Shown: piece after piece, positions 6,332-47,330 of the stretch
Position numbering within the stretch: the first letter of the stretch is position 1
Layout: each line of letters starts with the position of its first letter
Origin: Methanomicrobiales archaeon
GTDB taxonomy: Archaea; Halobacteriota; Methanomicrobia; Methanomicrobiales; Methanospirillaceae
Assembly (NCBI GenBank): GCA_025350045.1
Contig: JANXYM010000007.1
Span: forward strand, 1 to 59,650
DNA: 59,650 nt
Direction of reading: 5' to 3'
The notes under the pieces: model-generated
What the model was told of the DNA's origin: nothing
Database searches by the model: none
Seen by the model: the letters and a program-made list of their open reading frames with translations, nothing else
Translations under genes and position numbers: made by a program

Positions 6332-9139
6332 ATGAAGAATATTATCATCAAAGGTGCCCGCCAGCACAATCTTAAAAATGTCAGCGTGGAGATCCCCCGC
6401 GACAAGCTCGTTGTCATCACGGGCGTTTCCGGTTCCGGGAAATCCACGCTCGCATTCGATACCCTCTACGCGGAAGGACAGCGGCGCTATGTGGAGTCGC
6501 TCTCCACCTACGCCCGCCAGTTTCTCGGCATGATGCACAAGCCGGATGTGGACAGCATCGAAGGGCTGTCACCCGCAATCTCGATCGAGCAGAAGACCAC
6601 GAGCAAGAACCCCCGCAGCACGGTCGGGACGACCACCGAGATCTACGATTACCTCCGCCTGCTCTTTGCCCGCATCGGGACACCGTTCTGCCCCGAGCAT
6701 AATATTCCGATCGCTTCCCAGACTCCTGACCGGATCTCTGACCAGATCGCAGCCGAACATCCGGGCCTGGTCACTATCCTGTCACCTGTAGTCCGGCAAA
6801 AGAAAGGCACCTACCAGCAGCTCTTGAAAGACCTCAACAAAGAGGGATATGCACGGGTACGGGTGAATGGCGCCATCATCCGCACCGATGAGGAGATCAG
6901 CCTCGACCGGTACAAGAAGCAGGATATCGAGATCGTGATCGACCGGCTCGCGTCAACCGATCGCTCCCGTCTCACTGAGGCGGTTGAGAATGCGCTCAGG
7001 AAATCCGAAGGACTGGTGCTGGTCACGGGAGAGGATGAGAAAGAGTCCACCTACTCCTCGCTCATGGCCTGCCCGGTCTGCGGGCTTGCCTTTGAGGAGC
7101 TCCAGCCCCGCATGTTCTCGTTCAACAGCCCGTTCGGTGCCTGCGAGGACTGCCACGGCCTCGGTGTGAAGATGGAGTTTGACCCGGATCTCATCATTCC
7201 GGACAAGACCCGCTGCATTGCTGACGGTGCCGTTGCCCCGTACCGCAACCCGATGGACGGGTTCCGCGGCCAGTATCTCGCCACCGTGGCGAAACATTTC
7301 GGGTTTGATGCCTTAACCCCGATTAAGGATCTTACCGAGAAACAGTACAATGCCCTGATGTTCGGTTCAACCGAACGGATGCATTTCGCCATGAGCATGA
7401 AGAACGGGGATGCCCAGTGGTCCCACAACGGGGAATGGGAAGGTCTCCTCCCCCAGACGGCCCGGCTCTATTCCCAGACCCAGTCCGAGTGGCGGAAACG
7501 CGAGCTGGAAGGCTACATGCGGATCTTCGACTGCCCGGCATGCAAAGGCCAGCGTCTCAAAGACAAAGTCCTCGCCGTCCGGATAAACGGGAAATCCATC
7601 ATCGATGTTACGGATCTCTCCATAAGCAACAGCATCGTGTTCTTCAACGAGCTCAAACTTACGGAAAAGCAGACAGAGATCGCCCGCCAGATCATCAAGG
7701 AGATCCGGTCCCGGATTGAATTTCTGGAGAAGGTCGGACTGGGGTATCTCACCCTCTCCCGCAATGCCGGCACCCTGTCCGGAGGGGAAGCCCAGCGTAT
7801 CCGGCTCGCTACCCAGATCGGCTCGAACCTGATGGGAGTGCTCTACGTGCTCGACGAACCTTCCATAGGCCTGCACCAGCGGGACAACCGTAAACTGATC
7901 GAGACGCTGCGGACGCTCCGCGATCTCGGCAATACAGTGATTGTCGTGGAGCACGATGAGGATATGATCCGTTCGGCAGATCACCTGATCGATATGGGGC
8001 CCGGGGCAGGTCTTCATGGAGGAGCAGTTGTTGCGGAAGGAACACCTCCCCAGATCCAGAAGAACAGGAAATCCCTGACCGGCCAGTATCTTGCCGGCAC
8101 GAAAAAGATCGATATTCCGGCAAAACGCCGCAAGTCTGACAAGTTCATCACGGTCAAAGGCTGCAGAGAGAACAACTTAAAGAAGATCGATGCGAAGTTT
8201 CCGATTGGTCTGCTCACCGTCATCACCGGCGTCTCGGGCAGCGGGAAGTCCACGCTCGTGTACGAGACGCTCTACAAAGGCATGATGCAGATCCTCAACG
8301 AATCCCGGGATCAGGCCGGCCTTCACGACAAGATCGTGTTTGATGCTGAGATCGACAAGGTGATCGTGATCGACCAGTCTCCTATCGGAAAAACCCCAAG
8401 ATCCAACCCGGCCACGTACACCAAAGTCTTTGACGAGATCCGGACGGTTTTTGCCGAGACAAAAGAGGCCAGGATGCGGGGATACAAACCCGGCAGGTTC
8501 TCGTTCAATATCCGGGGCGGGCGATGCGAGGCCTGCGAAGGTGACGGGCTGATCCGGATCGAGATGAACTTCCTGCCGGATGTTTATATCGAGTGCGAGG
8601 AATGCAAGGGCAAGCGGTACAACCGTGAAACGCTCGAGGTGATGTACAAGGGTAAATCGATCGCTGATGTACTGGATATGAGCGTGGAAGAAGCCCTTGC
8701 TCTCTTCACCAACATCCCTGCGATCCGGACGAAGCTCGAGACGCTCTCCCGCGTGGGGCTTGATTACATCAAGCTCGGGCAGAGCTCCACCACCCTCTCC
8801 GGTGGCGAGGCCCAGCGGATCAAGCTCACCCGCGAACTTGCCAAGCGGGCCACCGGAAAGACGCTGTACCTGCTTGACGAACCCACGACCGGGCTCCATT
8901 TCGATGACACGAAGAAACTGATCAAGGTGCTCGACGACCTGGTAGAGAAGGGAAATACCGTCGTGGTGATCGAGCACAATCTTGACGTGATCAAGTCTGC
9001 CGATCATATCATAGATATCGGCCCCGAAGGTGGCGACGGTGGCGGTAAGATCATAGCAACGGGAACCCCGGAACAGGTTGCCAAGGTGAAGGGCAGTTAC
9101 ACGGGAGAGTTTCTCAAACCCCTGCTTCTCTCAGTATGA
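6332..9139 (+). CDS. uvrA: Excinuclease ABC subunit A
   Basis: DNA damage recognition ATPase of nucleotide excision repair; it loads UvrB. At 935 residues it is full length (E. coli about 940). The first Walker A is GVSGSGKST at residues 31-39, with a second copy near 630. Two ABC signatures LSGGEAQRI are present. Zinc-binding cysteine pairs lie in the first half (CPVCG...CEDCHG) and second half (CEACEG...CEECKG). It overlaps uvrC by 4 nt (ATGA), so the two are one transcript with coupled translation. uvrB lies about 21 kb away. Confidence 0.97.
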
Positions 9140-10808: not shown

Positions 10809-11042
10809 GGCTCTGTTGAAATCCTCTTTTTCCCATTGTATGCTTATTCTCTTTCGGGCTATAATGAGGGTGACGCCCTCTCTCCCCCCGGGGGAGCATC
10901 CCCCTGAGTCCCGGTTTTTCATCGACATCCTAAAATCTGTCGCAATAGTGGGGGATGCCTGAAGCGGCGGGGGCGAAATGCATGGGATGCAAAGAGCCCC
11001 CAAGGGCGACTCTCGTATCTCTCTTAAGGGTTTCAACGAGCC
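10809..11042 (+). mobile_element. MITE-like element E1 with IS6-type ends
   Basis: A 234-bp non-coding element with left end GGCTCTGTTGAAATCC and right end GGGTTTCAACGAGCC, near inverted complements. It has the family core: a CTCCCC/GGGGAG hairpin, then CCCGGTTTTTCATCGAC, then a CTTAAGGGTTTCAAC right arm. It contains no credible ORF. The 8-bp flanks do not match. It lies 117 nt beyond the uvrC stop and 90 nt before the receiver-kinase gene. Confidence 0.7.
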
Positions 11043-16531: not shown

Positions 16532-16887
16532 AGCTCTGGAGAAATCCTATTTTATCCTGCGATTCGGTTATACTCTACGGTAATTATGAGTGTGACCTCC
16601 TCTCTCCCTAAAGAGGGGGAGGCAATGCAAGGGGAGCGTCCCCTTGACCCCCTTTTTTAAGCGGAATTTTTACTAATCTTCTGCGACCCTCTCCCCGTGA
16701 GGGGGCTTCCTGTGCGGCGGTTCAGGGACGGGTTACTTCCCCATAACCGATTTGCCCAGCGAGGACCAAAACGAGGCGGCCGAGTGACCCCTGAACTGGG
16801 TGGGAAGACTTTAAAAAAACTATAAAAATCTATCCGATTTTCTTAGTTCGGGTGTGAACTCCCGTTCATGTGCGTTTCTACCGAGCC
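16532..16887 (+). mobile_element. MITE-like element E2 (long composite form)
   Basis: The left end AGCTCTGGAGAAATCC and left half (GTGACC...CTCTCTCCC...GAGGGGGAGGCA...CCCCTTGACCCCC) match E1 and E3. The right half, from about 16754, matches element E4: both share CCAAAACGAGGCGGCCGAG and GTTCATGTGCGTTTCTAC. The right end CGTTTCTACCGAGCC is a divergent complement of the left end. It fills the 493-nt gap between DedA and the ATPase and ends 13 nt from the ATPase stop codon. No ORF is supported inside. Confidence 0.6.
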
Positions 16888-16900
16888 AAAAAAAAGGAGA

Positions 16901-19468: not shown

Positions 19469-19643
19469 TGTTATAGTGTCCTTTCTGGTTATGGAATGAA
19501 ATGCAAATGCAGTATGTAGTGGGCTCTTCCGGACTATAATCCCGATTATGGAAGTACCCTTCCGGCAACCCGTCCGTGAGCCAACTCTGGAAAGTGATCC
19601 CGCTTTTGTCTCTCTCGCGGGGGAATGGTAATAAAAAAAAGGA

Positions 19644-20078
19644 TTAGATCGTGGTATCGATGATCGGTCTGTGTGAACCATCCGAGAAGTAGCCGGTGAT
19701 ATATACACGGTCTTTGCCTTCAAACGACCCAGCGATAGTGCGTGAATTCCCGTACTGGATCGGCGTTGTCGCCAGCCGTGAACCCCAGGCCTCGGTTTTC
19801 GCATTCCCGTTACTGTCCGTGATGGTGATCTCCAGTTCCACGAGTTTATCCGTCTGCGGGCTTCCCGGGTAGGCGATGACGATGTGCGATGCGTCGGGCT
19901 GTGAAATAATTACAACCTGATTACCAGCCGCCGGTGATGCTGATGGTCCGGCAGCGGGTGTTGCCGGGGAACCCGCAGGCTGCTGCATACAACCACAGGA
20001 CAGGAGCAGAAGTGAAATCACGGCAAGAAAACAGAGGATCCGTATTCCTTTTCCGCGATGGAGTAATCCCTTTGTCAT
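19644..20078 (-). CDS. Small lipoprotein of unknown function
   Basis: 144 residues. A hydrophobic signal ends in the lipobox LSCGC, so C30 is the likely lipidated residue. A Pro/Ala/Ser/Gly-rich linker of about 20 residues follows, then a compact beta-rich domain (QVVIISQPDASHIVIAY, VELEITITDSNG, DRVYITGYFSDGS). Methanogens carry many such anchored beta-sandwich proteins. I cannot name a family. It is transcribed towards the Ca2+-ATPase with 175 nt between them; a stand-alone gene is likely. Confidence 0.7.
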   Translation of the reverse strand: MTKGLLHRGKGIRILCFLAVISLLLLSCGCMQQPAGSPATPAAGPSASPAAGNQVVIISQPDASHIVIAYPGSPQTDKLVELEITITDSNGNAKTEAWGSRLATTPIQYGNSRTIAGSFEGKDRVYITGYFSDGSHRPIIDTTI

Positions 20079-20244
20079 AGGAAAACATTCGGCTCTTGGT
20101 TTTTATTAACATTCCCTTATCGTGTTCCGGCGAAAAAAAGGATTTGGATCCTGCAAAAGAACCCCTGCCATGTCAGATGTTCGCAGGGATCCTGTCGCCC
20201 GGAAAGTAGCAGTTGTTTACTCAAATGAGAATAGATAGAATTTG

Positions 20245-20492
20245 GGCTCTATTGAAAACCTCTTTTTCCGGTGTCGGCCTATTTTCATTCAGCTACTAAG
20301 AGGGTGACCCCCTCTCTCCCCCTGAGGGGGAGGCAGCCCAAGGAGAGCACCCCCTTGACCCCCGGTTTTTCATCGACCTTCTGTGGGCTATCGTTATATT
20401 GGGGTATATCCGAACGGCGGGGGCTTAAAGCACGAAGTGCAAAGATTCCCAAAGAGCGACTGCATGTTTCTCTTAAGGGTTTCAACAGAGCC
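20245..20492 (+). mobile_element. MITE-like element E3 with target duplication
   Basis: The best preserved copy, 248 bp. Left end GGCTCTATTGAAAACC and right end GGGTTTCAACAGAGCC are inverted complements with a single mismatch in the outer 13. The 8 bp to the left (AGAATTTG, 20237-20244) and right (GGAATTTG, 20493-20500) match at 7 positions. This fits an 8-bp target duplication as made by IS6-family transposases. Inside is a perfect CTCCCCC-TGA-GGGGGAG hairpin. No transposase is encoded. Confidence 0.75.
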
Positions 20493-20571
20493 GGAATTTG
20501 TTAAAAAACCTGCCGGGTATGAATACCCCTCGTATTATCGTAAAACTGATATACAGAGATCTTTCATATAT

Positions 20572-20739
20572 ATGAGGAAAATGACTCATACCTGCCCCGT
20601 CTGTGGAAAAGCAGAACACCTTGTCTGTGATGATGACCTTGGCGAGGAAGGGATGTTTTATTCCTGTCACGAACCCCGTGGGGGCTGCGGTTCGACGTTC
20701 AGGATTACGTCAAACGGTGATTGTGTCGATATCTTCTGA
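20572..20739 (+). CDS. Small zinc-ribbon protein
   Basis: About 55 residues. HTCPVCGKAEHLVC forms a CxxC knuckle and YSCHEPRGGCGSTF supplies a second Cys pair (C-x6-C), so one structural zinc site is likely. The protein ends NGDCVDIF. Such minimal zinc ribbons in archaea may act as nucleic-acid or protein adaptors; no specific function can be assigned. ATG 20572 and ATG 20581 are both possible; GAGG at 20574-20577 lies very close to the second. It starts 80 nt after element E3, which may have displaced its original promoter. Confidence 0.6.
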   Translation: MRKMTHTCPVCGKAEHLVCDDDLGEEGMFYSCHEPRGGCGSTFRITSNGDCVDIF

Positions 20740-20798
20740 TGGAACGTTTCTAATTTTTTTACCGGATAGCACGAGTTGTCTAAAAAAGAATGGTTTTT

Positions 20799-21047
20799 TC
20801 AGCTTGCCATGACGGTCATCGAAAAGCTGGTCTCATTACCGGTCGCGGGTTCCCATGACCGCATGGGGACAGCATTGCTCTTCTGCTCTCCTGGTGTGGT
20901 TGCTTTGATCTTCCAGATGCGGGTTCCCCTGGCACCCATGAGTTTCCCGGTCGTATCGGATGATGTATACGTGTCGTCCGTCACCCTCAGCCCGGGCGTG
21001 AAGAATTTAAAAAAAATTCCCTTGGGCATTTTTCGCAAAAAGCTCAT
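20799..21047 (-). pseudogene. Truncated chagasin-like (I42) protease inhibitor
   Basis: The C-terminal ~65 residues read as an I42 inhibitor: FTPGLRVTDDTYTSSD, then GARGTRIWKIKATTPGEQ, then RSWEPATGNETSFSMTV, with the conserved WEP of the FG loop. The N-terminal half, which should hold the NPTTG inhibitory loop, is missing and replaced by a short unrelated lead (MSFLRKMPKG). The break lies next to the promoter of the ArsR-flavodoxin gene. An intact I42 domain is about 110 residues, so this is a remnant. Poly-T on its coding strand (RC of 21008-21016) is part of the truncated lead. Confidence 0.6.
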
Positions 21048-21071
21048 ATAAGTGTATAAGCAAACACTTAT
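21045..21071 (+). promoter_or_regulatory. TATA box with overlapping 8-8-8 operator palindrome
   Basis: CATATAA (21045-21051) is a good TATA box 30 nt before the ATG at 21081, implying a very short leader. ATAAGTGT (21048-21055) and ACACTTAT (21064-21071) are perfect inverted complements separated by 8 nt. They overlap the TATA box and initiation region. ArsR/SmtB dimers bind such AT-rich dyads, so autorepression by the downstream gene product is the natural reading. Confidence 0.6.
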
Positions 21072-21080
21072 TCAGACTCC

Positions 21081-21983
21081 ATGGACTCCTGCAACAAGTG
21101 TAAAGAATGCAACAAGCTCTGCGAGATTGTCCCGGTTATGGCCGGGACGTTCAAGGCGCTTGGCGATCTCACCCGCCTCCAGATCATCTACCTGCTTGCC
21201 ACCGATACGAGCAGCACGCTGGGCGTGGGAGAACTTGCCGTCCGGCTCGGCATCTCGCAGCCCGCTGTCTCCCAGCACTTAAAGACGCTCAGGAACGAAG
21301 GGCTTGTCGATTCACGGCGGGAAGGATTCTATGTCTACTATACGATCAACTGCGAGCGGATCGTGCAGTTCCGGGAACATTTCGAGCTGATGTACTCCTG
21401 TGTCATGGAGAACTGCAGCCGGGAACTGGTCCGGAAATCAACCCGCGAGCGGATCTTGAAAGCGTGCGTGATCTTCTACTCCTACACCGGGGTGACACGG
21501 GGAATTGCAGAAGGGATCCGGAATTCCAGCGGGTGCGATCTCATTGAAGTAAAGACGCAGCACGAGTACTCGGCTTTTACTGCGTACACCACGGGGGTCC
21601 TGCGGTCCCGCAAGGGGTCCTGCGATGCGATTGTTCCAAAAGAGATCGATGTCTCGCAGTACGACCTGCTCATCTTCGGCACTCCCGTCTGGGCCTGGAA
21701 GCCGGCACCTGCCATGAATGCCGCGGTGCAGGCGCTCCGGGGCTGCGAAGGCAAGATGGCCGTAACCTTTGTGACCTGTTGCGACAAGCCCGGTGAAGCA
21801 CTCCCGCTCCTGAACAAGGCCCTCTCGGAGCGGGGAGTCGATGTGATGGCAGAGATCTGCCTGACTCCGGAAGATACGAAAAACCCTGCGGTGGGAAATG
21901 AACTTCTCAGCCGGATTGCCGCAGCGTTCCCCCCGGAATTACCCGTGAAGCATGAACTGCTGATGGAAAAAAAGATGAAGTGA
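21081..21983 (+). CDS. ArsR-type regulator fused to a flavodoxin domain, with N-terminal Cys4 motif
   Basis: 300 residues, three parts. Residues 4-14 hold C4-x2-C7-x2-C10-x3-C14, the spacing of a [4Fe-4S] ferredoxin motif. Residues ~20-100 are a winged helix of the ArsR/SmtB type (FKALGDLTRLQIIYLL; recognition helix QPAVSQHLKTL; wing VDSRREGFYVYYTI). Residues ~128-285 are a flavodoxin-like domain (VIFYSYTGVTRG phosphate loop; FGTPVWAWKPAP; VTFVTCCDKPGEA). It is most like the stand-alone flavodoxin next door, so the fusion probably arose by duplication in place. It heads a nine-gene row. A redox- or flavin-responsive repressor is inferred, not shown. Confidence 0.88.
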   Translation: MDSCNKCKECNKLCEIVPVMAGTFKALGDLTRLQIIYLLATDTSSTLGVGELAVRLGISQPAVSQHLKTLRNEGLVDSRREGFYVYYTINCERIVQFREHFELMYSCVMENCSRELVRKSTRERILKACVIFYSYTGVTRGIAEGIRNSSGCDLIEVKTQHEYSAFTAYTTGVLRSRKGSCDAIVPKEIDVSQYDLLIFGTPVWAWKPAPAMNAAVQALRGCEGKMAVTFVTCCDKPGEALPLLNKALSERGVDVMAEICLTPEDTKNPAVGNELLSRIAAAFPPELPVKHELLMEKKMK

Positions 21984-21987
21984 GATC

Positions 21988-22470
21988 ATGAAAACAAGCA
22001 TTATTTATCATTCGTATTCCGGGGTCACCCGGGGAGTTGCAGAACAGATCCAGAAAGCCTGTGACGGCGATCTCGTTGAAGTGAGATCCAAAGAGTATTC
22101 CTCCCGGCTCACCGCCTACACGATCGGCTGTTATCGTGCGATGAAGGGCATGTGCGATCGCATTGAACCCGAGACCCTCGATGTCTCATCGTATGATTGC
22201 ATTGTGATCGGCACACCGGTCTGGGCCGGGAGGGCAACACCCGCGATCAATGCTGCGGTTGCAGCCCTGGCAGGGTGCGAAGGGAAAAAAGCGATCATCT
22301 ATGCAACCTGCGGGGGAAATGCACAAGAGACCACGCCGATCCTGAAAAAAGCCCTTGAGGCACGGGGAGTGACGGTTGCCGGTGAATTTGTATTCGATAA
22401 AGCCGGTGTAAAGGATCCCGGGCGGATGAGCGCGATGATTGCCAGGATTAAAGCAACGGGAACTGAGTGA
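21988..22470 (+). CDS. Flavodoxin family protein
   Basis: A 160-residue FMN-binding electron carrier by homology. The phosphate-binding loop is YHSYSGVTRGVAEQI (residues ~7-21), the isoalloxazine loop VIGTPVWAGRATPAI, and the third loop IYATCGGNAQETTP. Its sequence parallels the flavodoxin half of the upstream regulator almost block by block. It starts 4 nt after that gene, and the next gene overlaps its stop, so it is in the same transcript. The partner donor and acceptor are unknown; the neighbouring ferredoxin-flavodoxin proteins are candidates. Confidence 0.9.
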   Translation: MKTSIIYHSYSGVTRGVAEQIQKACDGDLVEVRSKEYSSRLTAYTIGCYRAMKGMCDRIEPETLDVSSYDCIVIGTPVWAGRATPAINAAVAALAGCEGKKAIIYATCGGNAQETTPILKKALEARGVTVAGEFVFDKAGVKDPGRMSAMIARIKATGTE

Positions 22471-23261
22471 TGAAGACCATCATCTACTACTTCACCGGTA
22501 CCGGTAACTCGCTGGCCGCTGCAAAGAAGATGGCAGCAGCTCTTGGGGATTGCGAGCTCGTACCGATCGCATATCTTAAGGATACCCAGGGCACGATCAC
22601 TCCGGCCGCTGAACGAGTCGGTATCATCTGCCCGGTCTATTTTTCCGGCCTGCCGGTGATGGTGGACAATTTCGCACAAAGGCTCGATCTCTCCGGTTCG
22701 CAGTACCTATTCTCCGTAGTCACACTGGGTGGTTCGGGAGGATCGTCGACCCTGCACCAGCTTGACGATATTCTCCGGAAGCGCAAGGGCCGCGGGCTGG
22801 ATGCCGGGTTCATGGTGATGATGCCCGGCAACTATATCCTGATGTACGGTTCCCCGGCCGGGGAAAAACGGGAAAAACTTCTCGCCATTGCCGATGAACA
22901 GCTCACGGCAATCACCGGGACCGTCTCACGGTGCGGGAAACAGGAACTGCCTTCTTCGTTCTTTGCAAACCTGGTTCATACCCTGATGTATTCCCGGTTT
23001 GCATCCCATGTTCATGACGATGACCGGAAATTCTCGGTCCGTGAAATCTGCACCTCATGCGGGACCTGTGCGGCGGTCTGCCCGGCGGAAAATATCGAAC
23101 TGGTTGAGGGAAAACCGGTCTGGAAACATCACTGCGAGCTCTGCTGCGGGTGCATCCACCTCTGCCCGGTACAGGCGATCCAGGCAGGACGAGGTACTGA
23201 GAAGAGAGAGCGGTACCGGAACCCGTCGGTTACCCTCGCGGACCTGAAACGGAGATTATGA
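22470..23261 (+). CDS. EFR1-type flavodoxin/2[4Fe-4S] ferredoxin fusion, first copy
   Basis: 263 residues. The N-terminal ~155 are flavodoxin-like (YYFTGTGNSLAAAKKMA; ICPVYFSGLPVMV; VTLGGSGGSS). The C-terminus holds two clusters: CTSCGTCAAVCP and CELCCGCIHLCP. Combining FMN and two iron-sulfur clusters suits splitting or joining one- and two-electron steps. The same architecture recurs twice downstream. ATG 22470 overlaps the previous stop by one base (TGATG) and matches the start of its paralogues (MKTIIYYFTGTGN); a GTG at 22467 is in frame. Confidence 0.9.
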   Translation: MKTIIYYFTGTGNSLAAAKKMAAALGDCELVPIAYLKDTQGTITPAAERVGIICPVYFSGLPVMVDNFAQRLDLSGSQYLFSVVTLGGSGGSSTLHQLDDILRKRKGRGLDAGFMVMMPGNYILMYGSPAGEKREKLLAIADEQLTAITGTVSRCGKQELPSSFFANLVHTLMYSRFASHVHDDDRKFSVREICTSCGTCAAVCPAENIELVEGKPVWKHHCELCCGCIHLCPVQAIQAGRGTEKRERYRNPSVTLADLKRRL

Positions 23262-23268
23262 GAAGACC

Positions 23269-24073
23269 ATGAAGACCATCATCTATTATTTTACCGGCAC
23301 CGGCAATTCACTGGCTGCTGCAAAGAAGATCGCCGCACTCCTGGGAGACTGCGAGCTGGTACCGATCGCATCGCTGCAGGATATCCCCGGAGCGATCACG
23401 ACGGAGGCAGACCGGATCGGGATTGTCTGCCCGGTCTATGATGCGGGGATCCCGGTCATTGTCGCCGAATTCGCCGGAAGGCTCAATCTCCCGTGCAGGG
23501 TACGTGTTCGGTATTGTCACCATGGCAAGGATCGGCGTATCAGCCCTCCACCAGCTCAACGGCTTATTCCGCAGACGGCAGGGCAGGGGGCTTGACGCTG
23601 CCTTTGCGGTAGTAATGCCCGGCAATTTTCCACCGGTCGGTAAGTCGTGCCGGGTAGCACCCGATGATCCTGTCCTTACCGCAGCAGATACACGCCTCAC
23701 GGAGATTGCCGGCATTATCGACAGGGGCCTGGTCGTCCCTCCTGGATTCTCGCCCTTATCGTCACTGATCCACATGCTTTCGTATGGATCCTTCTCCCGG
23801 ACAGTGCGCAGCTCCGACAAGGCATTTTCCGTATCTGATGCCTGCACGTCCTGCGGGACCTGCGTGAAGGTCTGCCCGGTGGAAAACCTCACGATGGTGA
23901 AAGACCGGCCATCCTGGCTGCACCACTGTGAGTGCTGCTGTGCCTGCCTGCACTTCTGCCCGGTCGAAGCGATAGATCTCAACGTGATGCAGGGCACGAA
24001 AGGGAGGGGCCGGTACCGGCACCCGGACCTGAAGCTCGAGGACATGAAGGCCCAGCGGGGAAATGAACCATAG
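23269..24073 (+). pseudogene. EFR1-type flavodoxin/ferredoxin fusion, second copy, frameshifted
   Basis: The first ~75 codons (MKTIIYYFTGTGNSLAAAKK...AGRLNLP) are in one frame. The rest (GYVFGIVTMARIG...VVMPGNF...CTSCGTCVKVCP...CECCCACLHFCP...) is in the next frame. The switch lies at about 23490-23500; dropping one base there restores a continuous protein of about 267 residues colinear with the neighbouring copies. No slippery heptamer is evident, so this is a real +1 mutation or a sequencing error rather than programmed frameshifting. The rest is free of stops and well conserved, so the lesion is recent. Confidence 0.75.
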
Positions 24074-24109
24074 CGGTGGAACAGGAAAATTAGCAGAAAC
24101 GGTAATAAA

Positions 24110-24661
24110 ATGGAAACGAATGGAAAAGTGCCCGGGGATCCGTTGCCAAAGAATGCTCTCGTTGTTGTGTTTTCCTATCATCACAACAATACGGAGAAGA
24201 TCGCTCACATCATCGCAAACGTGCTTGCTGCACCGGTAAAAACGCCGCAGGAGGTCAGGCCTGAAGAGATCGTGGAGTACGATCTGGTAGGTTTTGGTTC
24301 AGGGATCTACAGTGCGACATTCGATGCCTCCCTCCTCAACCTTGCCGACCGGCTGCCGCAGGTGAACAACAAAAAAGTATTCCTCTTCTCGACCTATGGA
24401 GCTCCCGCCTTTGTGGCCAACCGGGAATTCATTGAAAAGAACCACGCGCAGATCCGGGAAAAACTCAGGGCGAAAGGGTACACGGTCATTGGTGAATTCG
24501 GGTGTGCTGGGTGGAACACGAACAGTTTCTTAAAATATTTCGGGGGTCTTAATAAGGGTAAACCCGATACCCATGACCTCCGGAATGCAGAAGCGTTTGC
24601 CCGGAACCTGCTGTTGCTTACCGGTATCGGGAATAAGAACACAACTTGGAAATTACCATGA
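24110..24661 (+). CDS. Flavodoxin domain protein, divergent
   Basis: 183 residues. VVVFSYHHNNTEKIAHII replaces the usual T/S-x-T-G-x-T phosphate loop, VGFGSGIYSATFDASLL gives the second loop, and FLFSTYGAPAFVANREFI the third. The C-terminal part (VIGEFGCAGWNTNSFLKYFGGLNKGKPD) resembles flavodoxins annotated near reductive enzymes in methanogens. It differs from the other flavodoxins here and is not a recent duplicate. It begins 36 nt after the frameshifted gene and its TGA overlaps the next ATG (ATGA), so it is in the same operon. Confidence 0.85.
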   Translation: METNGKVPGDPLPKNALVVVFSYHHNNTEKIAHIIANVLAAPVKTPQEVRPEEIVEYDLVGFGSGIYSATFDASLLNLADRLPQVNNKKVFLFSTYGAPAFVANREFIEKNHAQIREKLRAKGYTVIGEFGCAGWNTNSFLKYFGGLNKGKPDTHDLRNAEAFARNLLLLTGIGNKNTTWKLP

Positions 24662-25416
24662 CAGAAAACGTGACAACCCCGTCCGCGTCATCACGCCAGA
24701 AATTCCGGAAATGGCTCCTTGTCCTTTCCTTTGTTCTCCTGCCCATCACGCTCGTGTACATCTCGCCCATCATCATCCTGATGGGAGCAGCGGAAGGGAT
24801 CGCCACTGGCAGCATGATCCTCTTCATTGCGAATTTCTTTCTCTCGCTCGTTGTAGCCCGGCTCTGGTGCGGCTGGCTCTGCCCGATGGGGGCCTGGCAG
24901 GAGATCTGTTCGCCGGTCATGAAACACACCGTTCAGGAGGGCTGGCGCAACTCGGTCAAGTACCTTGTCACGGCGCTCTGGCTTGCCCTGCTCGCATTCC
25001 TCTTTTTTCGTGCCGGGGGAATCCGTGCGGTTAATCCCTTCTACAGCACCGATCATGGGCTGTCGATCACGTCTCTTGCACCCGTGGTTGTGGTGATCGT
25101 TATCTTTGCCCTGATCTTCACAGTCGCGTACTTCATGGGTCGGCGCGGGTTCTGCCATGTCTTCTGCCCGGTTGCGGCCCTGATGATCGCCGGCCGGAAG
25201 ATCCGGAACCTCATCGGGTGGCCGGCCCTGCAGCTGGATGCCGATGCCTCCCGCTGCATTGACTGCAACAGGTGTTCCCGTGAATGCCCGATGGGACTCG
25301 ATGTCCACGACATGGTCCGGGAAGAGAAGATGGAGAATGCGGAGTGCATCGTCTGTGCAGGCTGTGCCGATACCTGCCCGGAAGGTGCCATCCGGTATGG
25401 ATGGGCGCGAAAATGA
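24658..25416 (+). CDS. NapH-like membrane polyferredoxin
   Basis: 252 residues. Membrane helices lie at about 20-50, 60-80, 105-125 and 140-165. Two membrane-proximal motifs CGWLCP and CHVFCP are diagnostic of the NapH/NosR/CcoG group. Two C-terminal [4Fe-4S] sites follow: CIDCNRCSRECP and CIVCAGCADTCP. Family members pass electrons across or along the membrane from quinol-like carriers; methanogens have methanophenazine or membrane ferredoxin routes instead, so the donor is open. It would tether the otherwise soluble island to the membrane. ATG 24658 overlaps the previous stop by 4 nt. Confidence 0.88.
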   Translation: MTENVTTPSASSRQKFRKWLLVLSFVLLPITLVYISPIIILMGAAEGIATGSMILFIANFFLSLVVARLWCGWLCPMGAWQEICSPVMKHTVQEGWRNSVKYLVTALWLALLAFLFFRAGGIRAVNPFYSTDHGLSITSLAPVVVVIVIFALIFTVAYFMGRRGFCHVFCPVAALMIAGRKIRNLIGWPALQLDADASRCIDCNRCSRECPMGLDVHDMVREEKMENAECIVCAGCADTCPEGAIRYGWARK

Positions 25417-25430
25417 GGGGCCGGTGAATC

Positions 25431-26297
25431 ATGAAAACCGTGATCTATTACTTCACCGGCACCGGCAACACGCTTGTCGTTGCCCGGGAGCTTGCCGCGG
25501 AACTTGGCGATGTGAAACTCGTTCCCCTCCGGCGTGCGATCCAGCCCGGCGGGATCTCTGTCGATGCAGATGTCGTGGGCATCGCCTTCCCGGTTTACTT
25601 CCTCAACCTGCCCGGCATTGTCCGGAAGTTCGCTGAGAATATCCGGTTCAGCGGTAAGCCATATATCTTTGGCATCGCTACCTGCGGGGAACGGCCGGGG
25701 GGAGCGCTCTTTACCTTAAAAACGCTTCTCGAAGAAAAAGGGACAATGCTCTCTTACGGGTTTGTTGTTGTCATGCCGGAGAATTATATAGGCCCTGTTG
25801 ACCTTATGGGGGATGCACCCCTACGGCAGGAAAAATATATGCATGCACTAAGCCGGATCCCGGCAATTGCAGCAGCAATACGGGAACGGAAGGTATCCGT
25901 ACCGGAAGGTTCGGATTCCGCGCTCCTGAAGATCGGGGGCCCCATCACCAGCACCCTTGCAACGTCACTGTACAATACACCCGGACGCCTTCACGCAACC
26001 GCTGCCTGCAACCGGTGCGGGACCTGCGGCCGGATCTGTCCCACGAGAAATATTGCGGTGACCGAATCCGGTGTCAGCTGGGGGAAGGACTGCACCCAGT
26101 GTTATGCCTGCATCCACTGGTGCCCCCTATCATCCATATCCTCTTCTCTCCATAATCCTCACTGCACCCAGTGTTATGCCTGCATCCACTGGTGCCCGCA
26201 AACGGCAATCGAGATCGGCGGCAGGACTGCCGGAAAGCCGCGGTACCACCACCCGGATGTATCCCTGCGGGACATGCTGGAACAGCGGGGAGAATGA
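25431..26297 (+). CDS. EFR1-type flavodoxin/ferredoxin fusion, third copy, with an extra cluster motif
   Basis: 288 residues. The flavodoxin part has YYFTGTGNTLVVARELA, IAFPVYFLNLPGIV and IATCGERPGGA. The ferredoxin part has CNRCGTCGRICP, then CTQCYACIHWCP twice, 24 residues apart, created by an in-frame direct repeat (see 26089-26197). Its paralogues have only two cysteine motifs, so this one either carries a third partial cluster site or uses one of the duplicates. The spacer between copies (LSSISSSLHNPH) is serine-rich and unlike the rest. It lies 14 nt after the membrane ferredoxin gene. Confidence 0.88.
   Translation: MKTVIYYFTGTGNTLVVARELAAELGDVKLVPLRRAIQPGGISVDADVVGIAFPVYFLNLPGIVRKFAENIRFSGKPYIFGIATCGERPGGALFTLKTLLEEKGTMLSYGFVVVMPENYIGPVDLMGDAPLRQEKYMHALSRIPAIAAAIRERKVSVPEGSDSALLKIGGPITSTLATSLYNTPGRLHATAACNRCGTCGRICPTRNIAVTESGVSWGKDCTQCYACIHWCPLSSISSSLHNPHCTQCYACIHWCPQTAIEIGGRTAGKPRYHHPDVSLRDMLEQRGE
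26089..26197 (+). repeat. Direct repeat, 37 bp identical, 72-bp period, inside the third EFR1 gene
   Basis: Bases 26089-26125 and 26161-26197 are identical (beginning ACTGCACCCAGTGTTATG, ending CCACTGGTGCCC), separated by 35 unrelated pyrimidine-rich bases. The 72-bp period keeps frame. Perfect identity suggests a recent event or strong constraint. Confidence 0.9.
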
Positions 26298-26361
26298 ATA
26301 TGGACCGGACCGGCTGGATCGCGAATGCGGGAGGGTATTATTCCGGCAGGTGTCCAGTACC

Positions 26362-27483
26362 ATGACTGTGGGAAGGACCTTCCTGAAGGAACACACCCGG
26401 GAAGTGAACAACCGCCAGTATCGCGAGACCTTCGATGCCACTATCGGAGAAACTCTCCGCCAGGCAATCCGTATCATAACCGCAGAGCCGGCGCTCGTTA
26501 TTCCCGGGTCGGTGATCCTGCACCACCAGCGGAATGCGGCCATGATTCGGCAGCAGCACGAGCGCGAGGGGCTGCTCGTCCCGCCGGTCATGATCACCAG
26601 CATCACCTCGCGCTGCAACCTTGCCTGTGCCGGATGCTACATGCATGGCCGGGGAGAGCAGATCCGGGCGGAGATGAGCCCGGAGATCCTTGCATCGGTG
26701 GTTGATCAGGCCGCGGAGCTCGGCGTTTCTGTCATCGTGATTGCGGGTGGCGAGCCGCTCGTCCGTAAGGAAGAGATCCTCCGGATGACACGAGTCCATC
26801 CTGCGATCCTCTTTCCGCTCTTCACCAACGGTCTCCTGATCGATGACACGATGGCCGACGCGATTGCTGCATGCCGGAACATCGTGCCGGTAATCAGCTT
26901 TGAAGGTTTCCGGCATGACACCGATACACGGCGGGGGGGCGGGGTTTATGACCAGCTGCTCGAAACCTGTGCACGGCTTAAACGCCGGAATATCTTCTTT
27001 GGGTGCTCGGTCACGATCACGCGGGAGAACTTTGACCGGGTCACTCATGAGGCATTCATCCGGGAGATGCTCAGGATCGGCGCCCGGGCGTTCACCTTTG
27101 TCGAGTATGTGCCCATGGAGCCCGGCACCGGAAACCTTGTCCTGATCCCGGAGCAGAAGATGACACTGCATGCAGTCCTTTCGGTCTTCAACCAGAAGTT
27201 TGCGGCCCTCTTCATCGGTTTTCCGGGTGATGAGGATGCGTACGGCGGATGCCTTGCCGCAGGCCGGGGTTTTGTGCACGTTAGCCCATCCGGCGATCTG
27301 GAACCCTGCCCTGCTGCTCCGTTCTCGGATGCGAACCTGGCAAAGGTGCCGCTCAAAGAGGCGCTTAAATCCCGGCTCCTTGCCCGGATTCGAAAAGATC
27401 ACGGGCTGCTCACAGAAAAAGAAGGCGGCTGTGCACTCCGGGCGAGCCGGGCATGGGTGCAGGAGCTCGTGGGCCGGGAATAA
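26362..27483 (+). CDS. Radical SAM protein at the end of the redox operon
   Basis: 373 residues. The SAM cluster motif is C85-x3-C89-x2-C92 (SRCNLACAGCYMHG), followed by the GGEPL motif (VIVIAGGEPLVRKEEIL) and a TIM-barrel-like run (PLFTNGLLID; PVISFEGF; CSVTITREN). The C-terminal region has further cysteines (GGCLAAGRGFVHVSPSGDLEPCPAAPF, EGGCAL), as in SPASM/Twitch enzymes with an auxiliary cluster. The product is unknown; relatives mature peptides or build cofactors. Neighbouring flavodoxins and ferredoxins could supply the reducing electron. ATG 26362 is chosen; longer in-frame starts run back through the previous gene. Confidence 0.85.
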   Translation: MTVGRTFLKEHTREVNNRQYRETFDATIGETLRQAIRIITAEPALVIPGSVILHHQRNAAMIRQQHEREGLLVPPVMITSITSRCNLACAGCYMHGRGEQIRAEMSPEILASVVDQAAELGVSVIVIAGGEPLVRKEEILRMTRVHPAILFPLFTNGLLIDDTMADAIAACRNIVPVISFEGFRHDTDTRRGGGVYDQLLETCARLKRRNIFFGCSVTITRENFDRVTHEAFIREMLRIGARAFTFVEYVPMEPGTGNLVLIPEQKMTLHAVLSVFNQKFAALFIGFPGDEDAYGGCLAAGRGFVHVSPSGDLEPCPAAPFSDANLAKVPLKEALKSRLLARIRKDHGLLTEKEGGCALRASRAWVQELVGRE

Positions 27484-27556
27484 TTCACCGGCCGGATTTT
27501 TTTTAATTATTTCCGGAATTTTTTTTTTGGATCCGGAGAAAATATTTTTGTTTTTT

Positions 27557-27752
27557 GGCTCTGTTGAAACCTTCAGAGAAACATGCAGTCGCTCTTTAGG
27601 ACACTTTGCACTTGGTGCCCGGCGAAGACCAAAACGAGGCGGCCGAGCGACCCCCGAAGGGGGTGGGCAGACTCCTAAAATTTTATAAGAAAAGGTGTCC
27701 GATTTTCACAATCCGGGTGCGAACTCCTGTTCATGTGCGTTTCTACAGGACC
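27557..27752 (-). mobile_element. MITE-like element E4 (right-arm type plus conserved block)
   Basis: The plus-strand left end GGCTCTGTTGAAACC and the next ~45 bp match the reverse complement of the right arm of E3 (AGAAACATGCAGTCGCTCTTT). From 27617 it switches to the block shared with E2, ending GTTTCTACAGGACC. The CTCCCC core is absent. A CCCCC-GAA-GGGGG hairpin lies at about 27651-27663. Together with AT-rich spacer it fills the 290-nt gap between the radical SAM gene and the TPR gene, ending 21 nt from the latter's stop. Confidence 0.6.
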
Positions 27753-27773
27753 AAAAAAAATCAAAAAAATAGT

Positions 27774-28346
27774 TCAGGAGGAACTTTGCCGTCTTTTCCA
27801 GGCTGCAATCCCTGCCATCAGAACGATCGCACCAATCGGAGCATACAGGAGCGGGGTAGTTTTGGTTTTTTGCTGAGCCTGTTGCGCTTGTTCTGCCTGT
27901 CTTTGCATTCCGCGTGCGATTTCCCGGTTCTGTTTCACAACATCATCATAGGGGTTGATAGCGGTAGCCTTGTCATACGAGGCGATTGCTTCGGTATACC
28001 GGCCGAGCCGGGAGAGGGCGGCAGCACGCTGGCTCCACAATTCCTCGTCAGTACTGTTCGGGTTGATGGCGATTGCCTTTTCATAGGAGGCTAATGCTTC
28101 CGGATACTGGCCGAGTTTGGATTGGGAGAATCCCCGGTGAGTCCAGGCATCAGCATAATTGGGTTCGAATGCGAGTGCCTTGTCATACAAGGCAATGGCT
28201 TCGGTATCATGACCCTGCCGGGAGAGACTGACCCCGTCATCAAAAAACTGTACTGCCCGACCATCAAACGCTGTTACCGCTGGACATACGAGCAGTACGA
28301 GGAGGATAAATCCACAGAAAAAAGTAATCTTGCGTATCGCTGCCAT
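27774..28346 (-). CDS. TPR protein with signal and C-terminal membrane anchor
   Basis: 190 residues. A signal peptide (ITFFCGFILLVLLVCPAVTAF) is followed by three TPR units (AVQFFDDGVSLSRQGHDTEAIALYDKAL; DAWTHRGFSQSKLGQYPEALASYEKAI; WSQRAAALSRLGRYTEAIASYDKAT). A Gln-rich linker and a C-terminal hydrophobic segment (PLLYAPIGAIVLMAGIAAW) with a KRRQ tail follow. The repeats should face outside, anchored at the C-terminus. The last ~25 residues are nearly the same as in the TPR protein at 28813, so the two are paralogues. ATG 28346 is preferred over an upstream in-frame start because it begins the signal. The role is unknown; TPRs imply protein binding. Confidence 0.8.
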   Translation of the reverse strand: MAAIRKITFFCGFILLVLLVCPAVTAFDGRAVQFFDDGVSLSRQGHDTEAIALYDKALAFEPNYADAWTHRGFSQSKLGQYPEALASYEKAIAINPNSTDEELWSQRAAALSRLGRYTEAIASYDKATAINPYDDVVKQNREIARGMQRQAEQAQQAQQKTKTTPLLYAPIGAIVLMAGIAAWKRRQSSS

Positions 28347-28386
28347 GCGTTGAAATCTGTATGTGAGATATTTAATATTGTGATCC

Positions 28387-28509
28387 CTACTCAAATCCGA
28401 TCTCCATCAGATCTTGTTTCAGGAATCTTTTCAAATCTCCTCCCCGCAACTCACCCGTACAAATGATTTCATTATTGACCTTCGGGACGGAAGTGCTCCA
28501 TAAATCCAC
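28387..28509 (-). pseudogene. 3' remnant of a thioredoxin-fold gene
   Basis: The last ~40 codons before the stop read VDLWSTSVPKVNNEIICTG...DLKRFLKQDLMEIGFE. A Val-Pro (cis-Pro position) followed by xNxEIICTG and a terminal helix is the C-terminal half of a thioredoxin/glutaredoxin-like domain. No N-terminal half with a CxxC site is found upstream, where element E5 begins. It is probably a gene cut off by the insertion or later deletion. Other readings are possible because the match is short. Confidence 0.35.
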
Positions 28510-28544: not shown

Positions 28545-28784
28545 GGATCTGATGTAATTCTTTTTCATCGTTTGTTTCATCTCTCACAGATGCGAGCGTG
28601 ACTCCCTCTCTCACCCTGAGGGGGAGGCAGCCCCGGGGAAGTATCCTCCTGACCCCCTGTTTTCTCATCGTCCTTTAGAAGATTTTCTCACTATCGGGAG
28701 ATGCGCAACGTGAGGGGTGGAAGCATGACGGGTAAAGAGTCCCAGTGACCGACAACCCGTTTCATCTGAGGATTTCAACAGGGC
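28545..28784 (+). mobile_element. MITE-like element E5, degenerate
   Basis: About 240 bp, colinear with E1/E3: CTCTCTCACCCTGAGGGGGAG hairpin region, CCTGACCCCCTGTTTTCTCATCGTCC, and right arm ending GGATTTCAACAGGGC. The left end GGATCTGATGTAATTC is eroded. Overall it is more divergent than E3 and therefore older. It ends 28 nt from the stop codon of the downstream-lying TPR gene. Confidence 0.55.
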
Positions 28785-39733: not shown

Positions 39734-40004
39734 GGCTCTTTCAAGAAATTCTTAACAATTTATGACGTTCCTGTGGGCACGGTGCATTAGAGATAATTTT
39801 CCTCTCTGCGCAGGTATCCCCCATTTTGAGACAGGATTATAAAAAGGATATAAACTTCAGAAAAAATGTTAGGCATGAAAAATAGGGGGTCAAGGGGATG
39901 CTCCCCCTGGGCTGCCTCCCCCTCTGGGGGAGAGAGAGGGTCACCCTCATGGCAGTCATAAGAGAATACGTGAATAACGGGAAAACACAGGATTTTAAAG
40001 GCTG
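39734..40004 (-). mobile_element. MITE-like element E6, abutting a stop codon
   Basis: In reverse orientation to E1/E3. The core CTCCCCCTCTGGGGGAG hairpin, GGGGGTCAAGGGGATGCTCC and CATGAAAAATA match the reverse complement of the family. The outer ends (GGCTCTTTCAAGAAATTC on the left, GGATTTTAAAGGCTG on the right) are eroded. Boundaries are approximate. The right end falls at the stop codon of the kinase gene at 40005. Nothing else of note lies in 39519-39664. Confidence 0.55.
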
Positions 40005-47100: not shown

Positions 47101-47330
47101 GATTTTCATGGGAAACCTTTAAGTGAAATACGCAGTCACTCCCGGGTGCTCTTTGTACTTCATCCATTACACCCACGCCGCTCGTGCCTTCCCCAATATT
47201 GCGATAGGTTATAGGTTGCTGATGAAAAACCGTAGGTCAAGTGGATGCTCCCTTGGGCTGCCTCCCCCTCTGGGGGAGAGAGGGGGTCACCCTCATAGTA
47301 TATATGCGGTAAAAAGAGGTATCATCTGTC
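47101..47330 (-). mobile_element. MITE-like element E7, reverse orientation
   Basis: Colinear with the reverse complement of E1: GAAACCTTTAAGTGAAATACG, GGGTGCTCTTTG, CCCCAATATTGCGATAGG, GATGAAAAACCG, CTCCCCCTCTGGGGGAG and GGTAAAAAGAGG. Both outer ends are eroded, so limits are approximate. The end lies 3 nt from the stop codon of the gene at 47333, the same placement as E6. Confidence 0.55.

Follow-up and report, generated by a model that had tools for sequence, protein, structure and literature searches.

How strict anaerobes sense their pool of low-potential electrons is, to our knowledge, poorly known. A gene within a 59,650-nucleotide stretch of DNA from a Methanomicrobiales archaeon (hereafter the window) bears on this question, as it joins a DNA-binding domain to a flavodoxin: what could such a protein sense, and what would it control? 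An earlier note, drawn from the sequence alone, had described a Cys4 motif, an ArsR-type winged helix and a complete flavodoxin in one 300-residue frame, and had suggested that the protein reads the cellular reducing state through a cluster and/or flavin and controls its own operon. The reading towards which we lean is that of a dedicated autorepressor of an electron-transfer operon, with the signal entering via the FMN of the fused flavodoxin.

An ArsR winged helix joined to a flavodoxin

The gene and its parts are located as follows:
21081..21983, forward strand: ArsR-flavodoxin fusion protein, 300 aa (translation, profile matches, orthologs)
21090..21122, forward strand: codons of the N-terminal C4-x2-C7-x2-C10-x3-C14 tail (translation)
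21117..21440, forward strand: ArsR/SmtB winged-helix domain, residues 13-120, alpha1-alpha5 (HMMs, structure model, Foldseek)
21414..21416, forward strand: codon of C112 at the end of alpha5, part of a VMxxC motif in most orthologs (alignment)
21456..21932, forward strand: Flavodoxin_4-type domain, residues 126-284 (Pfam, Foldseek)
21480-21500, forward strand: FMN phosphate loop SYTGVTR within the Flavodoxin_4-type domain (S-x-[ST]-G-x-T motif)

Translation of 21081-21983 yields MDSCNKCKECNKLCEI..., a single 300-residue frame without internal stop whose cysteines C4, C7, C10 and C14 show the spacing given above. Residues 21-96 pass the ArsR/SmtB model NF033788 of NCBIfam (83.2 bits, cut-off 55), and Pfam places HTH_5 on residues 31-78 (2.7e-14, 53.2 bits, cut-off 22) and Flavodoxin_4 on residues 128-234 (3.5e-8, above the gathering score). 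In an AlphaFold2 model built with 27 orthologs (mean pLDDT 77.6), the ArsR half (residues 13-120) comprises alpha1-alpha4, a beta hairpin and a long alpha5 (helices 13-27, 30-41, 49-56 and 60-72, strands 76-81 and 84-89, helix 91-120), i.e. the alpha1-alpha2-alpha3-alphaR-beta-beta-alpha5 topology of the ArsR family, and a Rossmann-like domain begins at residue 128. Foldseek searches against the PDB returned NolR, HlyU and SmtB for the N-terminal half, and the FMN-bound Flavodoxin_4 structures 3edo and 3klb were among the leading matches of the C-terminal half. Translation, HMMs, model and Foldseek agree on the three parts proposed earlier, and the architecture can be regarded as established. 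The description of the flavodoxin as complete holds for its fold and Pfam match, but less so for residues 167-179 and those after 285, where the model is poor. Confidence is low at residues 1-3, 167-179 and 285-300 and weak in the linker (121-124), so that a coupling between the domains is not visible in the model.

The classical alpha3 metal site of the family can be discarded, as the ELCVCDL-type motif is absent and alpha3 reads ELAVRLG in its place. Because many ArsR members lack this motif, its absence excludes only that particular metal site and not family membership.

A single fusion event within the Methanomicrobiales

The earlier note had envisaged both a search for the same architecture in other archaea and a single-genome artefact such as a lost stop codon. 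An order-wide search found the fusion in 47 of 232 Methanomicrobiales genomes, spanning four of the six families seen among the relatives of the source genome; of 100 such relatives, which include Methanoregula MAGs, about a quarter carry full-length orthologs. Outside the order, none turned up among 393 sampled genomes of the phylum; plasmids gave no match covering 80% of the query, and viral contigs gave none. An assembly or annotation artefact, or a recent fusion in a single strain, could draw on the frameshift in the neighbouring EFR1 gene (23269-24073) and on unfused pairs that lie one stop codon away from a fusion. Its probability is nonetheless close to nil, as the 47 orthologous fusions from four families, with purifying selection across both halves, rule out a single-genome artefact and establish the conservation of the fused form.

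Within the order, both domain trees give the fusion a single origin. In the flavodoxin tree (86 domains), all 47 fused domains lie on one side of a single branch (100/99), and in the ArsR-core tree the fusions group together to the exclusion of the unfused forms (87/85, good though not decisive).

How the fusion came about is illustrated by a comparison with unfused INTERMEDIATES from five genomes (L152, L153, L134, L104 and L099). In L152 and L153, two genomes of one family, a 115-aa ArsR is followed by TGA ATT ATG and an in-frame flavodoxin, so that the pair is a single stop codon away from the fusion. L134, which belongs to a different family, encodes an unfused ArsR with a full Cys4 tail (CIKCDDCTGLC) whose gene overlaps that of the flavodoxin, and in L104 a flavodoxin gene is overlapped by an ArsR remnant. 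L099, from another order of the same phylum, carries at 7787-8681 an unfused 112-aa ArsR (VMQKC) directly before an EFR1-type gene, and its ArsR gene is preceded by the palindrome TAACAATAT-N12-ATATTGTTA; the EFR1-type gene at this locus looks interrupted. The flavodoxins of L134, L152 and L153 best match FLD2, the free flavodoxin encoded next to the fusion. Since unfused ArsR genes with flavodoxin neighbours branch outside the fusion clade, it was an adjacent pair that fused. The order of evolution established in this way would run from an adjacent ArsR and flavodoxin pair via a tandem duplication of the flavodoxin to the joining of one copy to ArsR, probably through the loss, once, of the stop between two adjacent genes. 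The Cys4 tail is probably older than the fusion.

As a side observation, stand-alone ArsR relatives from another family of the phylum (L100 7812-8162, L101, L102 and L103) have a conserved Cys-rich C-terminal tail, KCTCNFFCDKCPYN, which includes the C112 equivalent and represents a different possible metal site.

A probable operator, conserved and unique to the fusion gene

The region upstream of the gene contains the following elements:
21036..21052, forward strand: A-rich BRE-like stretch, then the TATA box ATATAAG (21046-21052); a putative BRE/TATA assignment based on conservation
21054..21073, no strand: probable GTATAAG-N6-CTTATAC-like operator, window copy GTATAAGCAAACACTTATTC (conservation, pairing, uniqueness)
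21048-21071: 8-8-8 palindrome ATAAGTGT-ATAAGCAA-ACACTTAT, perfect in the window, overlapping the operator

When the fusion genes are aligned, similarity in the upstream regions is confined to roughly the last 50 bases before the start, which are almost identical. In 46 fusions, the A-run and the TATA box (1.85-2.0 bits per column) keep a constant distance and the operator arms ATAA and TTAT are nearly invariant (about 2 bits per column), against 0.0-0.3 bits per column farther upstream. From 5′ to 3′, the A-run and TATA box are followed by the palindrome TATAAG-N6-CTTATA, which ends 6-11 bases 5′ of the ATG. On the inner axis of symmetry, a mean of 6.3 of 7 arm pairs is formed, compared to 4.7 on the overlapping 8-8-8 axis and at most 3.1 on any other. 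Because the outer palindrome is broken in several lineages and the inner one holds better, the latter was taken as the operator and the left arm of the former as the TATA box. This puts a putative binding site of the kind typical of ArsR/SmtB proteins, a palindromic AT-rich operator at the regulator's own promoter, at 21054-21073.

A search with the operator 24-mer, allowing up to 3 mismatches in the source genome and 100 relatives (101 genomes), recovered one site in the former, and all 25 sites in the latter lie directly before the fusion gene. The reversed 24-mer used as a control found 0 sites, and 0.10 are expected in the window by chance. A wider regulon is therefore dismissed at this threshold, there being no second site in any of these genomes, and a looser search for TATAAG-N6-CTTATA gave matches no more numerous than its reversed control. 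Being conserved and unique to the front of the fusion gene, the operator provides strong comparative evidence for a dedicated autoregulator whose binding is predicted. Autoregulation of the operon by the fusion protein is thus strongly indicated from comparative sequence analysis, in line with what the earlier note had supposed. No Rfam leader or riboswitch was found in 19500-28500.

Two further features of the window were observed. Just upstream of the fusion gene, 20383-20739 encodes a small Cys-rich, zinc-ribbon-like protein (CPVCGK...CHEPRGGCG) without a Pfam match, for which no counterpart was detected at the same place in orthologous loci. In addition, the window holds an uncharacterised family of dispersed intergenic repeats of 47-145 bases that are 63-96% alike (16589-16658, 20300-20369 and 28594-28663; 16753-16895 and 27616-27760; 10886-10972; 39904-39950 and 47250-47296), several of which contain an inverted motif like CCTCCCCCTCTGGGGGAG.

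The operon resembles an electron-delivery chain

Downstream of the fusion gene, the following genes were identified:
21988..22470, forward strand: stand-alone flavodoxin FLD2, a paralog of the fused domain (about 46% identical), the next gene in 18/33 loci
22467..23261, forward strand: EFR1 family flavodoxin-ferredoxin protein (NF038196, 247 bits, cut-off 75)
23269..24073, forward strand: second EFR1 gene, frameshifted, in frames 23269-23595 and 23423-24073 (ORFs, domain matches)
24110..24661, forward strand: second type of stand-alone flavodoxin (Pfam Flavodoxin_3, 6.6e-11)
24646..25416, forward strand: NapH-like membrane 4Fe-4S protein (best match NCBIfam NapH, 58.1 of 213 bits, below cut-off)
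25431..26297, forward strand: third EFR1 family flavodoxin-ferredoxin protein (NF038196, 247.6 bits)
26395..27483, forward strand: radical SAM protein, start codon not settled (Pfam Radical_SAM, 7e-18), far below all NCBIfam equivalog cut-offs

These genes often overlap by 4 bases. Among 33 fusion loci with at least 7 kb of downstream sequence, EFR1 genes are present in 30, radical SAM genes in 25, NapH-like genes in 21, FLD2 in 18 and the second flavodoxin type in 14. Radical SAM enzymes need low-potential electrons, which they commonly receive via flavodoxin or ferredoxin, and the operon therefore reads as an electron-delivery chain for a radical SAM enzyme.

Over 222 bases, the second EFR1 gene is 76% identical to the one before it, indicating a tandem duplication. 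Its frameshift, located around 23430-23600, is either a sequencing error or a young pseudogene, and the gene is intact at the same place in L040, L041, L047 and L048. An EFR1 gene was also seen on a Pusillibacter plasmid (L154 3001-3759), where its position between rhodanese/thiol peroxidase (bcp) and the peroxide stress gene yaaA hints at an oxidative-stress link of EFR1 proteins.

The fused flavodoxin as candidate sensor

If the protein represses this operon, its flavodoxin domain is a candidate for the input. All 47 fused domains preserve the phosphate loop S-x-[ST]-G-x-T, all three FMN-contact loops are kept and S134, G137, T139, G200, P202, V203, W204, T232, P237 and G238 are invariant in 27 aligned fusions, from which we infer that the domain binds FMN. 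Flavodoxin folds without flavin usually lose the phosphate loop. The rate of evolution adds to this: in the same 19 genomes, the fused domains have a mean pairwise identity of 74.9%, compared to 79.3% for the ArsR cores and 54.9% for the adjacent free flavodoxins, with the fused domain exceeding the free one in 166 of 171 genome pairs (the pairs are not independent, yet the difference is large). Conserved near the level of the ArsR core, the fused domain is constrained like a regulator rather than a passenger, and a sensory role of the FMN domain is well supported by these sequence comparisons. Of the sensing of the reducing state via cluster and/or flavin that had been suggested, it is the flavin part that the conserved loops and low rate bear out; the Cys4 motif is not essential (see below).

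The main rival is a bifunctional protein whose C-terminal flavodoxin delivers electrons to the radical SAM enzyme and whose repressor half senses by other means, for example a C112 thiol switch or titration by partner proteins. In several fusion operons (15 of 33 loci), the free flavodoxin FLD2 is absent, and the fused domain might have been retained there to carry electrons in its place. C112 is invariant with or without fusion, and adjacent unfused pairs exist, which means that co-expression came first. The unfused forms in L134, L152 and L153 moreover demonstrate that a covalently attached flavodoxin is not required for the ArsR half to work, which counts against an FMN sensor. We nevertheless regard this alternative as unlikely: a domain attached for convenience should evolve like its paralog, whereas the fused one is far slower-evolving than the free carrier, and the EFR1 proteins, which are nearly always present, already contain flavodoxin domains.

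One cysteine is invariant, four are dispensable

Across the 27 aligned fusions, a single cysteine is invariant: C112, which lies close to the end of alpha5, ahead of the linker, and which the earlier note had not mentioned. It is kept in 47/47 fusions as well as in the unfused ArsR relatives. C112 is the strongest candidate for a thiol switch or for interdomain coupling, but given its conservation in unfused ArsR, a part in flavin coupling does not have to follow. This invariance would also suit an ordinary thiol-based ArsR redox repressor with a merely structural, flavin-free flavodoxin fold; thiol sensors are known in the ArsR family, and BigR-type NCBIfam models match weakly. Against it stand the three preserved FMN-contact loops and their invariant residues, and we give this possibility very little weight.

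The N-terminal motif follows a different pattern. Its four cysteines, present in the window with the spacing noted earlier, are variable among orthologs: of 46 fusions, 27 have all four, three have three, four have two, eight have one and four have none. Hence, 19 are incomplete, 12 of which retain one cysteine or none. On the ArsR tree, the states 'all four' and 'fewer' require about nine changes, and fusions bearing the motif come from several families, with the cysteines tending to disappear together. As the spacing is exact where the motif is present and the intervening residues vary, it is selected where it occurs and is dispensable all the same. By eye, its loss does not correlate with operon content across the fusion loci compared.

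These patterns bear on the idea of a protein that, like metalloregulators, is switched primarily by a [4Fe-4S] cluster or Zn at Cys4, with the flavodoxin serving the cluster. The exact C-x2-C-x2-C-x3-C spacing in 27 fusions and in the unfused ArsR of L134, where the motif is likewise complete, and the joint loss of the cysteines are what this scenario would predict. However, Cys4 was lost repeatedly with operator and flavodoxin retained, so it cannot be an essential sensor and is ruled out in this role. The conservation of cluster ligands expected of a [4Fe-4S] regulator is likewise not found, with all four cysteines in only 27/46 fusions, and alongside the missing alpha3 motif, the operon has no metal efflux or ars genes. 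Cys4 as the primary switch is accordingly improbable. Fusions that keep all four cysteines may hold a cluster at this site, for which the sequence would fit either Fe-S or Zn.

A model for carrier-based redox control

Taking up the FMN-sensor reading again, the operon is probably switched by the redox state of a carrier domain within its own repressor, as far as can be judged from sequence. A dimer of the ArsR-type winged helix would sit on TATAAG-N6-CTTATA between the TATA box and the start codon, blocking assembly of TBP, TFB and RNA polymerase at its own promoter and keeping the fusion, flavodoxin, EFR1 and radical SAM genes off. The FMN of the C-terminal flavodoxin would be reduced and oxidised by the partners that serve the free flavodoxin of the operon; since sensor domain and downstream-encoded carrier are paralogs, both may be charged by one set of reductases. 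By analogy with MsvR, we slightly prefer DNA binding in the reduced state and release upon oxidation, in which case the electron-delivery genes would be made once low-potential electrons run short. C112, located in the helix that leads into the flavodoxin, may couple the domains or act as a thiol switch, and the N-terminal Cys4, as a metal or Fe-S site, could adjust the switch in certain lineages, others doing without it. DNA binding, repression, the redox response and its direction are all predictions of this model.

A more far-reaching version is tentative, and we would not yet put it first: the duplicated flavodoxin on the repressor would turn the carrier itself into a sensor of how well a radical SAM pathway is supplied with low-potential electrons, an N-terminal Fe-S site being an optional second input, and would define a new class of redox regulators. 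If true, such a repressor, joined to a paralog of a carrier under its own control, would gauge the electron pool directly. The idea is testable with a single purified protein and 26-bp DNA, and natural variants, i.e. unfused pairs one stop codon off and the repeated Cys4 losses, could help to tell apart what covalent linkage, flavin and cysteines each contribute. Furthermore, the regulator would provide an entry point to a methanogen EFR1/radical SAM operon that is as yet uncharacterised.

Comparison with known systems

The closest parallel in methanogens is MsvR, which, like the fusion, combines an N-terminal HTH with a C-terminal sensory domain. In its reduced form, MsvR binds to its own promoter, where it excludes the general transcription factors and so represses its own gene; its redox response is cysteine-dependent and autoregulation proceeds via a palindrome at its own promoter (PMC3729527). 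The two differ in their sites (TTCG-N8-CGAA as opposed to TATAAG-N6-CTTATA) and in the sensor, which is a V4R domain with cysteines in MsvR and a flavodoxin in the fusion. With 20.3 bits against a cut-off of 220 in the NCBIfam MsvR model and a flavodoxin in place of V4R, the fusion is not a member of that family.

With the ArsR/SmtB proteins SmtB, CadC, CzrA, NolR and HlyU, the fusion has in common the winged helix with alpha5, a palindromic operator overlapping the promoter and (predicted) autoregulation. Compared to the metalloregulators among them, it adds a C-terminal flavodoxin and lacks both the alpha3 metal motif and metal efflux genes. ArnR, a winged-helix protein of the MarR/ArsR kind with cysteine ligands that responds to redox or NO, needs three C-terminal cysteines for its cluster (PMC12343034), whereas the N-terminal Cys4 of the fusion is dispensable.

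The flavodoxin half shares its fold, phosphate loop and second and third FMN loops with the Flavodoxin_4 proteins 3edo, 3klb and 4ici and with the neighbouring free flavodoxin. Unlike these, it is covalently joined to a DNA-binding domain, and it is much slower-evolving than the free paralog next door. No ArsR-flavodoxin regulator was found in the open-access literature searched. In terms of family, the protein belongs to ArsR/SmtB and carries a Flavodoxin_4 domain in addition; its mode of action would make it a redox repressor of a new variety.
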